Assembly (NCBI GenBank): GCA_017474515.1
Contig: JAFVHN010000049.1
Coordinates: 1-59,870, forward strand
DNA from: Prevotella sp.
Lineage (GTDB): Bacteria > Bacteroidota > Bacteroidia > Bacteroidales > Bacteroidaceae
Reading direction: 5' to 3'
DNA length: 59,870 bases
The translations under genes were made by a program, and so were the position numbers. The number at the start of each line of letters is the position of its first letter. Position 1 is the first letter of the stretch. The notes under the pieces were generated by a model, which saw only the letters and a list, made by a program, of their open reading frames with translations, did not search any database and was not told the origin of the DNA. Of the stretch, positions 34,280-38,824 are shown in pieces.

Positions 34280-35701
34280 CTATTTTCTCTCGCTCACCAT
34301 CCACAAACCGAGGAAAGTGAGCAGGCCGTTGAGCATCAGCAGCTCGTAGCCGAACTGATAATGAAGGAAATGGCTGAAAACAAGGTTCAGCAAATAGCAA
34401 AGCAACGGTGAGGCAACGGCAATGACGGGCACAAAACGATGACGGCAGATGCCCCTGCGGGTAAGCAGCGCAAAGGCAAAAAGCCCCAGCAGCGGACCGT
34501 AGGTGTAGGAGCAGAGAATGTAGATGGCATCGATGACGCTCGAGGAATTGACCGCCTCCACCAGCAGGATGATGACCATGAACACCGCAGCCATGGCCAC
34601 ATGCACGCGCTTGCGCAGCGACTCGTCGCCGGGCTTGCCCTGAATATCAACGCAGTAGGTGGTGGTCATGGCCGTCAATGCCGAGTCGGCACTGCTGAAA
34701 CATGCCGCCACGATGCCGAGCGAGAAAAGCACCACGACGGCCTGCCCCAGGCGCCCCGTGGCAGCAAACATGGGCAGCAGCTCGTCGCCTTTCTGCGGCA
34801 GCGGCTGCCCTTCTTTTTGCGCCAGAAGCACCAGCAGCACGCCCAATGAAAGAAACAGCAAGTTGGCCGGCACGAAGGCCACGCCATAGCTGCACATATC
34901 TTTCTGAGCGTCGCGCAAGGTTTTGCAAGTCAGGTTCTTCTGCATCATGTCCTGGTCAAGGCCGGTCATGACGATGACAATGAAAATGCCGCTGAGGAAC
35001 TGTTTCCAGAAATTCTGCCGCGACACCCAGTCGTCCATGACAAACATGCGCGAATGGCTGTCGGCGGCAATGGCTTTGACCGCCTCGGGCACCGACAATC
35101 CCAATTCCCCAATTACATTATATATAATAAGCAGCAGGGCGGCAAACATGCAGACGGTCTGCAAGGTGTCGGTCCACACCAGGGTGCGTATGCCGCCGCG
35201 CCGCGTGTAAAGCCAGATAAGGGCTGTCAGGGCCACCACGGTCAGGGGGAAAGGCAGGCCGAAGTCGTCGAACACAAAGCGTTGCAGGATGATGCACACC
35301 ACATAGAAGCGCACGGCGGCCCCCGTCATCTTGGACAGCAGGAAGAACCACGCCCCCGTCTGATAGGCATGATGTCCGAGTCGCCGCTGAAGGAAGGTGT
35401 AGATGGTGGTCATGTCCCACCGGTAATAAACGGGCAGCAGGATGAACGCCACGGCCACATAACCCAGGATGAAGCCCAGGCAGGTCTGCATATACGTCAT
35501 TCCCGACTGCAGCACCATGCCGGGCACACTGACAAAAGTGACGCCCGAGATGCTGGCCCCCACCATTCCGAAGGCCACCATGTACCACGGGCTCTGCCGG
35601 TTGCCACGGTAAAAGGCATCGTTGCCGCCGCGGTGCGCCGTCAGGCGGCTCAGCAGCAGCAGAAGGCCGAAATAGGCCGCTATGGTCAGTAAAATCGTCA
35701 T
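34280..35701 (-). CDS. Sodium:solute symporter family transporter
   Basis: 473 residues with about 12-13 membrane segments, SSS family (LeuT fold). The family block is seen as GMVGASISGVTFVSVPGMVL near residues 48-68, GFILGYVAVAFILLPVYYR, and the Na+-site segment FSLGIVAACFSSADSALTAM near 325-345. The substrate (sugar, amino acid, pantothenate or other) cannot be told. The gene converges on trxB with no gap between the stops. Its promoter is divergent from the trpB2 leader. Confidence 0.92.
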   Translation of the reverse strand: MTILLTIAAYFGLLLLLSRLTAHRGGNDAFYRGNRQSPWYMVAFGMVGASISGVTFVSVPGMVLQSGMTYMQTCLGFILGYVAVAFILLPVYYRWDMTTIYTFLQRRLGHHAYQTGAWFFLLSKMTGAAVRFYVVCIILQRFVFDDFGLPFPLTVVALTALIWLYTRRGGIRTLVWTDTLQTVCMFAALLLIIYNVIGELGLSVPEAVKAIAADSHSRMFVMDDWVSRQNFWKQFLSGIFIVIVMTGLDQDMMQKNLTCKTLRDAQKDMCSYGVAFVPANLLFLSLGVLLVLLAQKEGQPLPQKGDELLPMFAATGRLGQAVVVLFSLGIVAACFSSADSALTAMTTTYCVDIQGKPGDESLRKRVHVAMAAVFMVIILLVEAVNSSSVIDAIYILCSYTYGPLLGLFAFALLTRRGICRHRFVPVIAVASPLLCYLLNLVFSHFLHYQFGYELLMLNGLLTFLGLWMVSERK

Positions 35702-35709
35702 TGCGGGTG

Positions 35710-35717
35710 CAAAATTA
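35710..35717 (-). promoter_or_regulatory. Promoter -7 element for the sodium:solute symporter
   Basis: Minus-strand TAATTTTG nine bases upstream of the start codon at 35701, so the leader would be very short or the mRNA leaderless. Confidence 0.55.
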
Positions 35718-35791
35718 CTACTTTTAACCTACAAAAAGCTGTTTTTCAGAATATTTCTTACAATTTATTTGGCCGTTTCGCAGATTATCTA

Positions 35792-35799
35792 TAATTTTG
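35792..35799 (+). promoter_or_regulatory. Promoter of the trpB2 leader transcript
   Basis: TAATTTTG -7 element, with a TTTGG -33 element at 35768-35772 about 20 bp upstream. Transcription would start near 35805, leaving a leader of roughly 190 nt before trpB2. Confidence 0.8.
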
Positions 35800-35827
35800 C
35801 AGCCGTAAAATGTAAAAAAGTAACAAT

Positions 35828-35872
35828 ATGACATTCCGTTTCTTCGCATTTTGGTGGCGCTGCTCAGGATGA
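35828..35872 (+). CDS. Tryptophan-rich leader peptide of trpB2
   Basis: A 14-codon ORF, MTFRFFAFWWRCSG followed by TGA. It begins about 23 nt after the expected transcription start and has two consecutive TGG Trp codons at 35852-35857. It also has four Phe codons. Its position between a good promoter and an intrinsic terminator upstream of a tryptophan synthase gene is the evidence that it is a regulatory leader peptide, not a random ORF. Tandem Trp codons are very unlikely by chance at this spot. Confidence 0.8.
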   Translation: MTFRFFAFWWRCSG

Positions 35873-35953
35873 AACCGTCGTGAGTCGCCATGCCTGTGTG
35901 TGGAAAACAATATGCACAAAGAGGCCTGCCGTTCTTACGACAGGCCTCTTTTC
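35852..35953 (+). promoter_or_regulatory. Predicted tryptophan attenuator (alternative hairpins)
   Basis: Folding by eye gives three mutually exclusive helices. Helix 1:2 pairs TGGCG (35855-35859) with CGCCA (35886-35890) and CTCA (35863-35866) with TGAG (35881-35884). Antiterminator 2:3 pairs GCCT/TGTG (35892-35900) with CACA/AGGC (35915-35925). Terminator 3:4 pairs AGAGGCCTG (35920-35928) with CAGGCCTCT (35941-35949), followed by TTTTCTTATT. A ribosome stalled on the Trp codons would cover part of helix 1:2, free segment 2 to pair with segment 3, and so prevent termination when charged tRNA-Trp is scarce. Confidence 0.75.
35918..35953 (+). terminator. Intrinsic terminator of the trpB2 attenuator
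   Basis: A stem of nine to eleven base pairs (AAAGAGGCCTG / CAGGCCTCTTT) with a T-rich tail, 45 bp upstream of the trpB2 start codon. Confidence 0.85.
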
Positions 35954-35997
35954 TTATTCAAAAACATAATTATTCATCACATAACACATTACACATC

Positions 35998-37359
35998 ATG
36001 AAACAAAAGAAATTCATCTTGCAGGAAAGCGAGATCCCCACGCAGTGGTACAACATCCAGGCCGACATGAAGACCAAGCCCATGCCTCCGCTGAACCCTC
36101 AGACGCACGAGCCGATGAAGGCCGAGGACCTGTTCCCCATCTTCGCCGAAGAATGCGCACGCCAGGAGGTTGACATGGAGCACCCATGGATTGACATTCC
36201 CGAGGAAGTGCTCGACAAGTACAAGTTCTACCGCTCCACGCCCCTGGTGCGTGCCTACGCCCTTGAGGAAGCCCTGGGCACGCCGGCACACATCTACTTC
36301 AAGAACGAGAGCACCAACCCGCTGGGCTCGCACAAAATCAACACCGCCCTGCCGCAGTGCTACTACCTGAAGAAGGAGGGCATCACCAACGTCACCACCG
36401 AGACGGGTGCCGGACAATGGGGCATGGCCCTGAGCTACGCCGCCAAGCTGTTCGGCCTGGAAACCGCCGTCTATCAGGTGAAGATTACGCTCCAGCAGAA
36501 GCCCTACCGCAGCATTGCCATGCGCACCTTCGGTGCCACCGTGACGGGTTCGCCGTCCATGTCAACGCGCGCCGGCAAGGACATCATCACCCGCGACCCC
36601 AACCATCCCGGCTCGCTGGGCACGGCCATCTCGGAAGCCCTGGAACTGGCCATGACCACGCCCAACTGCAAATACTCGCTGGGCTCGGTGCTCAGCCACG
36701 TCAGCCTGCACCAGACCATCATCGGCCTGGAAGCCGAGAAGCAGATGGCCATGGCCGGCGAATATCCCGACATGGTGATTGCCTGCTTTGGCGGCGGAAG
36801 CAACTTCAGCGGAATTGCATATCCCTTCATGCGCCACAACATCCTGGAAGGAAAGAACACCGAGTTCATTGCCGCCGAGCCGAACAGCTGTCCGAAGCTG
36901 ACTCGCGGCAAGTTTGCCTACGACTTCGGCGACGCCTCGGGCTATACGCCGTTGCTGCCCATGTACACCCTTGGCCACGACTTCAAGCCGGCCAACATCC
37001 ACGCCGGCGGCCTGCGCTACCACGGTGCCGGCACTATTGTCAGCCAGCTGCTCAAGGACGGACTGATGCGCGGCGTTGACATTCCGCAACTGGAGTCGTT
37101 CGACGCAGGAATGCTCTTCGCACGCACCGAGGGCATCATTCCCGCACCCGAGAGCTGCCACGCCATCGCTGCCACCATCCGCGAGGCCAAGAAGTGCAAG
37201 GAGAGCGGCGAGCAGAAGGTCATTCTGTTCAACCTCTCGGGCCACGGTCTCATCGACATGCCCAGCTACGACCAGTACATCAACGGCGACCTGCGCAACT
37301 ACAGCGTGAGCGATGAGGAAATCAGCCACTTCCTCGAGAATGTGCCGAAGGTGTTCTGA
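35998..37359 (+). CDS. TrpB2-type tryptophan synthase beta chain (PLP-dependent)
   Basis: 453 residues, longer than classic TrpB (about 400) and of the TrpB2/TrpB-like class. The start at 35998 (MKQKKFILQESEIPTQWYNI) matches the class N-terminus; a longer frame back to 35890 crosses the attenuator. Lys113 in NPLGSHKINTALPQ is the expected PLP lysine. TETGAGQWGMALSYAAKLFG and the phosphate-binding CFGGGSNFSGIAYP are conserved. It condenses indole with serine to tryptophan. TrpB2 enzymes often lack the usual TrpA contacts and may salvage free indole. No other trp gene is in the window; its leader carries a Trp attenuator. Confidence 0.95.
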   Translation: MKQKKFILQESEIPTQWYNIQADMKTKPMPPLNPQTHEPMKAEDLFPIFAEECARQEVDMEHPWIDIPEEVLDKYKFYRSTPLVRAYALEEALGTPAHIYFKNESTNPLGSHKINTALPQCYYLKKEGITNVTTETGAGQWGMALSYAAKLFGLETAVYQVKITLQQKPYRSIAMRTFGATVTGSPSMSTRAGKDIITRDPNHPGSLGTAISEALELAMTTPNCKYSLGSVLSHVSLHQTIIGLEAEKQMAMAGEYPDMVIACFGGGSNFSGIAYPFMRHNILEGKNTEFIAAEPNSCPKLTRGKFAYDFGDASGYTPLLPMYTLGHDFKPANIHAGGLRYHGAGTIVSQLLKDGLMRGVDIPQLESFDAGMLFARTEGIIPAPESCHAIAATIREAKKCKESGEQKVILFNLSGHGLIDMPSYDQYINGDLRNYSVSDEEISHFLENVPKVF

Positions 37360-37369
37360 ATGAAAACAA

Positions 37370-37431
37370 GGGAAGACAGGCTCCGAAACCCGGAAAAGTT
37401 CGGGCAATAGCGGTTAATGCGCTGTCTTCCC
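37370..37431 (+). other. Long hairpin after trpB2
   Basis: GGGAAGACAG (37370-37379) pairs with CTGTCTTCCC (37422-37431), with a nested CCCG ... CGGG hairpin inside. There is no T-run, so it is not a typical terminator; it may be an RNA 3'-end or regulatory structure. Confidence 0.5.
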
Positions 37432-37460
37432 ATGCTTTCGAAGATGGTATTCTTCAAATT

Positions 37461-37625
37461 CGCTCCAGTCCAGACCGCAAAAAACTCCAGTCGTTTTGCG
37501 GTTTGGACTGGAGTTTTTTGCGGTTTGGACTGGAGTCGTTTGCGGTCCGGACTGGAGTCGTTTGCGGTTTGGACTGGAGTCGTTTGCGGTTTGGACTGGA
37601 GTCGTTTGCGGTCCGGACTGATTTG
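37461..37625. repeat. 22-bp tandem repeat with inverted first copy
   Basis: About six contiguous copies of a 22-bp unit containing TTTGCGGTTTGGACTGGAGT, with GGTCCGGACTGG variants. They are preceded by an inverted partial copy (CTCCAGTCCAGACCGCAAAA), so the left end can form a hairpin with the next copy. No spacers separate the copies. It lies between trpB2 and the convergent phosphoesterase gene. Confidence 0.85.
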
Positions 37626-37645
37626 CCGCTTTGAAAAAATGCCGC

Positions 37646-38824
37646 TTATCGTTTTTTCCTCAGCGTAATCACTACAATCTCGGGCGGCACGCCAAGTCGG
37701 AAAGGCACCACCCCGCTGACGCCCGAGCTAACAAACATTGCCCTGTCGCCCTCGTAGAACATTCCGGCGTCGTATTTCGACACGAAGAGATAGGGCGAAA
37801 GCCCGAAGAGACGCACCTGCCCGCCGTGGGTGTGCCCGGCCAGGGTGAGCTGGGCGTGCGACTGGGGCAGGATGGAGTCGGGCCACACAATGGGCGCATG
37901 CTGCAACATGAGGAGGAAAGAGCGCTTGTCGATGCCCTCCACCGCCTTGGGCACGTCGCAGCGCACGGGATAGCCCTTTTCGTAAATGGCTCCGCACACG
38001 TCCTCGGTTCCGGCCACCACAATGCTGTCGCGTCCGCGCCTTATCTTGCGGTTTTCGTTCATCAGCAACTGCCACCCCATGCTTCGTATGCGCGTCTGCG
38101 TCTGCAATTCGTTCAGTTCGCGGGTGGCGGCATCCACCTTCACATATTTGGCATAGTCGTGGTTGCCCAAGACGGCCATCACGCCGTCCTTGGCACCAAT
38201 GCGCGAAAGGCGGCCCTGCACGCGGTCGAGTTCCTCGGGCCACATGTTTTGCAGGTCGCCCACGAACACAACCAAGTCGGCCTTCTGCGCGTTGATGCTG
38301 TCAACCATCTTGTCGATAAGGGGGTCGCGAAAGTCGATGAGCGTGCCGGCATGAACGTCGCTGAACTCCACGATGCGGTAACCGTCGAAGGCTTCCGGCA
38401 AGTCGGCGGAGGCATATTCCACCTGCCTCACTTTCAGCTGCATTACTCCAGTGGTGCTGCCATAGATGATGCCGACCACCGACAAAATGGCCAGCAGCAA
38501 GCCAATGGCATTGCCCCAGTTGTGGCGTTTATGGAACAGGCGGCGCCAGAGGCTGCCCAAAGCGCTGCACAGGGCATAAATGGCCTTGGGCACCACCAGC
38601 AGCCCCAAGAGGAAGAGGAAAAGGAAAAGGTAATTGATTTCGCGAGGGGCGAAATGGTCAACGGCCGACAGGGCCAGCGCGTAGCACACCAGTGCCACGG
38701 CAGGTATCCAAAACAAGGTGCGCCACAGTCGGCGGAGCGGACGGCGGCCAAGGTGTCGGCGATAGAACCACACGTCGGGCAGCACGATGAGCGCCACAAG
38801 CAGTGCTATGATACGAGAAATCAT
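37646..38824 (-). CDS. Membrane-anchored metallophosphoesterase
   Basis: 392 residues. The N-terminal part (about 1-125) has four hydrophobic segments (RIIALLVALIVLPDVWF, LFWIPAVALVCYALALSAV, YLFLFLFLLGLLVV, AIGLLLAILSVVGIIYG). The C-terminal part is a calcineurin-like phosphoesterase domain with all metal-binding motifs: FSDVHAG, FVGDLQN, VLGNHDY and AGHTHGGQVRLFG. This layout matches the YkuE/YaeI-like integral-membrane phosphoesterases, which may act on phospholipid or nucleotide-lipid substrates. The true substrate is unknown. It starts 29 bp after the dihydroorotase gene on the same strand, so they may share a transcript. Confidence 0.93.
   Translation of the reverse strand: MISRIIALLVALIVLPDVWFYRRHLGRRPLRRLWRTLFWIPAVALVCYALALSAVDHFAPREINYLFLFLFLLGLLVVPKAIYALCSALGSLWRRLFHKRHNWGNAIGLLLAILSVVGIIYGSTTGVMQLKVRQVEYASADLPEAFDGYRIVEFSDVHAGTLIDFRDPLIDKMVDSINAQKADLVVFVGDLQNMWPEELDRVQGRLSRIGAKDGVMAVLGNHDYAKYVKVDAATRELNELQTQTRIRSMGWQLLMNENRKIRRGRDSIVVAGTEDVCGAIYEKGYPVRCDVPKAVEGIDKRSFLLMLQHAPIVWPDSILPQSHAQLTLAGHTHGGQVRLFGLSPYLFVSKYDAGMFYEGDRAMFVSSGVSGVVPFRLGVPPEIVVITLRKKR

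Follow-up and report, generated by a model that had tools for sequence, protein, structure and literature searches.

A putative ribosome-mediated tryptophan attenuator of the Bacteroid-trp family before a stand-alone trpB2 gene in Prevotella sp.

In the trp leader attenuator of Escherichia coli, tandem Trp codons lie in a short leader reading frame, the RNA strands can pair as 1:2, 2:3 or 3:4, and a terminator precedes the first gene. A second type of leader control, exemplified by TnaC, relies on a nascent-peptide stall and is used here for comparison. The gene considered in this work, trpB2, codes for an additional TrpB, the function of which is under debate.

Within Bacteroidota, a Trp attenuator is already known before trp operons. 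Bacteroid-trp RNA (Rfam RF01692, Bacteroidete tryptophan peptide leader) is described as a conserved element upstream of the Flavobacterium psychrophilum trp operon (PMC6414381), and is named in a table of a 2010 survey (PMC2864571) and in PMC4977773. For a flavobacterium, amino-acid operons were reported to show strong signs of attenuation by leader peptides (PMC9723704), and the long 5' UTRs of B. thetaiotaomicron contain short ORFs reminiscent of leader peptides (PMC7366714). In Corynebacterium diphtheriae, attenuators were predicted for two units, trpB1EDGC and trpB2A (PMC1262725). PMC4833913 offered nothing on this leader element. Among the open-licence papers listed, no account of a trpB2 attenuator in Bacteroidota was found, nor of the stand-alone trpB2 context in this phylum.

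The locus described here lies in a 59,870-base stretch of Prevotella sp. DNA, hereafter the window. With Bacteroid-trp it shares Trp leader codons, a hairpin between them and the downstream strand, and the phylum; it differs in scoring below the 49-bit cut-off, in preceding a stand-alone trpB2, in stopping early and in having Trp codons to the number of two. With the E. coli trp leader it shares tandem Trp in a short leader, three alternative helices and a terminator before the first gene, but phylum and sequence are different, and the window has a Bacteroidota promoter and an A-rich start region. As in C. diphtheriae, two transcription units of one genome contain a trpB and each is preceded by a putative Trp attenuator; in that actinobacterium, however, trpA follows trpB2. 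Our reading, to which we assign a probability of about 0.88, is that the region constitutes a ribosome-mediated transcription attenuator through which the stand-alone trpB2 responds to charged tRNA-Trp; its parts, its kinship and its co-varying alternative helices are established below by sequence and computation.

The trpB2 locus and the parts of its leader

The first-pass annotation had described a promoter, a 14-codon leader with tandem TGG codons, alternative pairings and a terminator with a T tail in front of trpB2, and all of these were located (Table 1), the promoter being of the Bacteroidota type. Its boxes match TTTG and TAnnTTTG, which we take to be the -33 and -7 elements of Bacteroidota-type promoters; TAnnTTTG or TnnnTTTGC occurs at most 60 nt upstream in 69 of 76 leaders; in this window, one strand carries about 0.015 TAnnTTTG per 60 nt. 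A generic scan of positions 35500-36200, which does not cover this promoter type, listed no sigma-70 promoter and no terminator.

Table 1. Features of the trpB2 leader region, in window coordinates
Feature	Position	Strand	Remark
Sodium:solute symporter gene	34280..35701	minus	divergent from trpB2
-33 promoter element TTTG	35768..35771	+	assigned by consensus
-7 promoter element TAATTTTG	35792..35799	+	consensus TAnnTTTG
Leader ORF MTFRFFAFWWRCSG	35828..35872	+	14 codons, stop TGA 35870-35872
Tandem Trp codons TGG TGG	35852..35857	+	control codons
Strand 1, TGGCG	35855..35859	+	partner of strand 2
Hairpin P1, CTCAGGA / TCGTGAG	35863..35884	+	conserved
Strand 2	35886..35900	+	CGCCA (35886-35890, to strand 1) and GCCTGTGTG (35892-35900, to strand 3)
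Strand 3	35915..35928	+	pairs in the antiterminator; 5' arm of the terminator
Intrinsic terminator hairpin, strands 3:4	35918..35951	+	T-rich stretch 35949-35959
trpB2	35998..37359	+	TrpB-like PLP enzyme; TIGR01415 trpB_rel, PF00291

The start region of the leader shows, by eye, no evident Shine-Dalgarno sequence. Strand 2 holds both CGCCA, complementary to the TGGCG of strand 1, and GCCTGTGTG, for which CACAAAGAGGC (35915-35925) is a possible pairing partner. The terminator hairpin has a folding energy of -21.5 kcal/mol and a modest T tail, TTTTCTTATTC; because the flanking genes, trpB2 and the symporter gene 296 bases away, are read divergently, it would act on the trpB2 transcript. Three Trp codons are found in 34 of 44 trpB2 leaders, compared with two in the window leader, where a one-base alignment gap coincides with premature termination of the ORF relative to the other leaders listed: the stop falls 8 bases before the 3' strand of P1, and at most 6 before it in those leaders. 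A ribosome waiting at this early stop would leave strand 2 free for strand 3, and termination would therefore need quick release. The four Phe codons of the leader had also suggested an added response to phenylalanine, a proposal that was rejected since these codons are not conserved: three or more occur in 3 of the 44 trpB2 leaders (window included) and in none of 32 operon leaders.

Folding of the 146 nt from 35815 to 35960 gives z = -5.6, none of 200 shuffles being as stable. Furthermore, both strands of the window together contain five ATG-started ORFs of 8-30 codons with tandem Trp, and the leader ORF is the only one of them with a strong terminator-like hairpin within 110 nt. These fold shuffles and this survey, together with the strand-swap test given below, lead us to reject a chance origin of the leader.

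Regarding the tryptophan genes, the trpB2 product is of the TrpB2 type (TIGR01415, 581 bits, cut-off 518.85), and the other trpB of the genome, of the TrpB1 type (TIGR00263, 568 bits, cut-off 392.45), heads a trpBEGDCFA operon on contig C42, in which trpEGDCFA were assigned by Pfam domains and gene order, TrpE being under its NCBIfam cut-off. No gene for TRAP (PF02081) or the Trp repressor (PF01371) was found in this genome, which is 88% complete; the controls were positive, B. subtilis for the former search and both E. coli and B. subtilis for the latter. Directly 3' of trpB2, the translation of a frame at 37417-37668 is a repeated protein motif (CGLDWSRLRSGLESFAVWTGV), which suggests that the DNA itself contains short tandem repeats.

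Kinship with Bacteroid-trp RNA

RF01692 covers positions 35803-35930 at 29 bits, without reaching its gathering score of 49, and the match stops just past the terminator 5' arm; in agreement with the placement of this RNA, the leader precedes a tryptophan gene that lies above the TIGR01415 cut-off. Genome-wide, two matches were obtained at E<=1 (150 of 188 candidates scored), one before trpB1 (33.1 bits) and the one before trpB2. We also built a model of our own, R1, from 26 leaders, 18 before trpB2 (window included) and 8 before trp operons, both leaders of this genome being among the 26. R1 scored these two at 110.8 bits (operon) and 100 bits (trpB2), and everything else in the genome at 26.5 bits or less (150 of 875 candidates scored), so that two strong leader copies, before trpBEGDCFA and before trpB2, are present in this 88% complete assembly. 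Further copies were rejected: the next R1 matches were these two terminators read on the reverse strand, and weak ones on contigs C25, C15, C58, C107 and C112, with terminator-like stretches and no Trp ORF on C25, C15 and C107. Outside its training set, R1 recovered eight of eight operon leaders (L119, L120, L121, L123, L127, L133, L138 and L143), all above the RF01692 cut-off, at 51.6 to 94.8 bits. Judging from these matches, the window element is a diverged form of Bacteroid-trp, the leader also found before trpBEGDCFA in the same genome; it belongs to a Bacteroidota family, with no sign of an enteric origin. The operon leader itself (L117:1324-1506) begins about 100 bases past its nearest promoter-like box, and is entered in phase by a TTG-started frame of 60 codons.

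Across the family, RF01692 matched 89 of 201 genomes under stricter search filters, which missed the window's own leader; 11 matches in 10 of these genomes, none above the cut-off, lie directly before trpB2, as established by comparing places. All 30 RF01692 loci retrieved contain a Trp-run ORF, the model itself including Trp codons, and the next gene is trpB1 in 27 (821 bases on at L142), trpD in one and not resolved in two. At E<=1e-5, R1 matched at least 259 of 399 family genomes, and among the matches listed 29 new loci, the best-scoring one per genome and some of which had served in building R1, all precede trp genes (16 trpB1, 6 trpD, 7 trpB2), in further support of Trp attenuation. In three genomes (G069 contig C6, G087 contig C1 and G202 contig C39), two leader matches share a contig at a distance of about 5 to 6.6 kb, as though a single trp region carried two attenuators.

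Terminator and antiterminator helices alone are compatible with any attenuator, including one in which tryptophan is sensed directly by a protein or a tRNA (TRAP, T-box, riboswitch) and the ORF is incidental. Nevertheless, besides the TRAP and TrpR searches described above, the only element of the window to reach an Rfam cut-off is one tRNA elsewhere, and a relaxed Rfam scan of the leader region returned nine weak matches with no T-box or riboswitch among them, which renders direct sensing highly improbable.

Alternative folds and their covariation

Leader folding was modelled with a ribosome occupying the last Trp codon, the readout being the mean probability with which the 5' arm of the terminator pairs upstream. 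For the window, this value was 0.66 with the stalled ribosome and 0.07 ribosome-free; with strand 2 shuffled it was 0.46 and 0.42, respectively, and one in ten shuffles (0.10) did as well as the window's own stalled pairing. Over 40 trpB2 leaders the means were 0.59 stalled and 0.32 free (0.47 and 0.55 with strand 2 shuffled), and over 32 operon leaders 0.51 and 0.24 (0.44 and 0.50 shuffled). A stalled value more than 0.2 above the free one was seen in 27 of the 40 trpB2 leaders, the window's among them, and in 22 of the 32 operon leaders, and one more than 0.2 below it in 2 of 40 and 1 of 32; taken individually, only 7 of 40 and 3 of 32 had a stalled pairing that no more than 5% of strand 2 shuffles equalled. 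The nearest kin of the window leader, L045, was reversed (0.19 stalled, 0.75 free), and the operon leader of the genome was weak in this model (0.35 stalled, 0.26 free).

Strands 1:2 and 2:3 co-vary across 27 non-redundant relatives, as seen in a swap test that carries more weight than the leader-by-leader folds. Own strands paired better than swapped ones by 3.8 kcal/mol for 1:2 and by 1.4 kcal/mol for 2:3, in each case with 0 of 5000 derangements as good, a result that was retained for both pairs in 20 trpB2 leaders alone. Since the model does not pair strands 1 and 3, these served as negative control, and here own strands were 0.11 kcal/mol worse than swapped (3124 of 5000 derangements). 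In 26 leaders, 98.9% of P1 cells were paired, with both sides changed at 2 of 7 pairs, and 97.4% of terminator cells, with both sides changed at 8 of 12; for the two combined, 98% of cells were paired and double changes occurred at 10 of 19 pairs (0 of 500 shuffles), on a structure derived from the same alignment as the count. Leaders L242, L252, L258 and L260 were excluded from the pairing tests, in which terminators were sought between leader stop and gene, those of the window and L156 being placed by hand; a first terminator finder called 136 of 227 regions, many of them weak hairpins without a leader, and that count was set aside. The mutually exclusive helices 1:2, 2:3 and 3:4 are thus a property of the group, and of the window leader by folding.

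This covariation bears on a simpler explanation, namely that the hairpin is a constitutive terminator or 5' stem-loop that merely dampens transcription or protects the mRNA, the Trp-rich ORF being unused. Hairpins without a leader ORF do exist in nature before trpB2 (L047, L065 and, doubtfully, L095, see below), but a plain hairpin has no need of strands 1:2 and 2:3 co-varying while 1 and 3 do not, and the Trp-run ORF recurs at every retrieved RF01692 locus, with the reservation made above on the model; we therefore regard this explanation as unlikely. Even less probable is a nascent-peptide stall of the TnaC kind, sensing free tryptophan rather than uncharged tRNA. Residues do recur beside the Trp run, with Y or F preceding it and R and then S or L following, yet they vary by lineage (WWWRCS, WWWLSI, WWWQNS), and the constant part of the aligned core overlaps hairpin P1, so that RNA pairing can explain its constancy.

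Ribosome-mediated Trp attenuation, as the first-pass annotation had it, is thus supported by the fold-switch model, the strand swaps and the kinship to the operon leader and RF01692, and from the modelled folds we infer how stalling, termination and induction would proceed in the cell. RNA polymerase would start just downstream of 35799 and a ribosome would translate the leader. With ample Trp-tRNA, the ribosome would finish and leave, strand 1, which contains Trp codons, would pair with strand 2, and strand 3 would be free for strand 4, ending transcription near 35951. With scarce Trp-tRNA, the ribosome would stall on TGG TGG and cover strand 1, allowing strand 2 to pair with strand 3; no terminator would then form and trpB2 would be transcribed.

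Patchy occurrence before trpB2 and its significance

The gene trpB2 was found in 161 of 201 family genomes. The DNA before it was examined at 146 listed places besides the window (29 and 117 loci from two retrievals, three fragmentary places being skipped) and on 80 named contigs, two of them with fewer than 200 bases upstream; the sets overlap. A leader was present at 35 of the 146 places, in other family genomes, and on 8 of the 80 contigs; as leaders were picked by Trp runs and by eye, their Trp content does not constitute independent evidence. Conservation in orthologous leaders, which the earlier annotation had made a check, held in part: the leader occurs before trpB2 in several other genera and is absent at all 11 same-genus trpB2 places examined. 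Two same-genus genomes, G005 and G393, each have a second R1 match, among the matches listed without place, and the trpB2 of G393 is outside those 11.

Tandem Trp and a terminator were observed in 31 of the 35 leaders, L242 being uncertain. The remaining three, L252, L258 and L260, present leader-like peptides with spaced Trp (e.g., MFTFRWNNDWQAWRWRGAAFQFHLQK) ahead of a T-tailed stretch that resembles a hairpin; they may represent a third form of leader. At L047, L065 and, more doubtfully, L095, promoter and terminator are kept before trpB2 and the Trp ORF is gone; these seem to be decayed attenuators. A check of the same DNA with R1 brought in L265 as well as these three remnants, L095 at a weak E of 0.02; L252, L258 and L260 were not recovered at E<=1, and E-values were weak for L221 (0.48), L242 (0.013) and L226 (0.0018). 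At L265 (G123 contig C18; 31.6 bits with R1), left out of the 35, a leader with Trp codons, P1 and terminator still stands upstream of a trpB2 with one in-frame stop, and G123 has a second trpB2 at a contig edge.

The same divergent symporter lies beside trpB2 at 41 of 109 loci. The gap between both genes measures 334-450 bases in the three leader-bearing loci among them, 296 in the window, and a median of 127 in leaderless loci (mostly 90 to 285; odd values of -3325, dropped from the median, 1055 and 2274). On the trpB2 protein tree, a fast tree with leader rows chosen on purpose and the misread row L315 excluded, the leader requires 17 changes of state across 166 rows, and for the 37 tandem-Trp rows 10 changes are forced by well-supported branches. 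In the leader tree, where most branches are weak and the bootstrap did not settle, operon and trpB2 leaders are intermixed; a single operon clade was rejected (AU p 0.012), and exchange between both kinds of leader is possible. From these trees, we read the patchy spread as an old leader with many losses and possible operon exchange, regain also being conceivable. More tentatively, and with rather less than even confidence, the leader may behave as a mobile cassette, repeatedly gained and lost before trpB2 (17 changes), decaying ORF first and exchanged between operon and trpB2, such that the two trp units of this genome carry leaders from two sequence classes and may differ in the degree of Trp shortage they answer.

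If the proposed attenuation holds, trpB2 would be tied to tryptophan supply in common gut and rumen bacteria. Transcription-translation coupling has been little studied in Bacteroidota, and a working attenuator, if true, would imply a ribosome closely trailing RNA polymerase. The natural variants (intact, WW, WCW, spaced-Trp and ORF-less), some of them at one syntenic site, would allow attenuation to be tested in this phylum.
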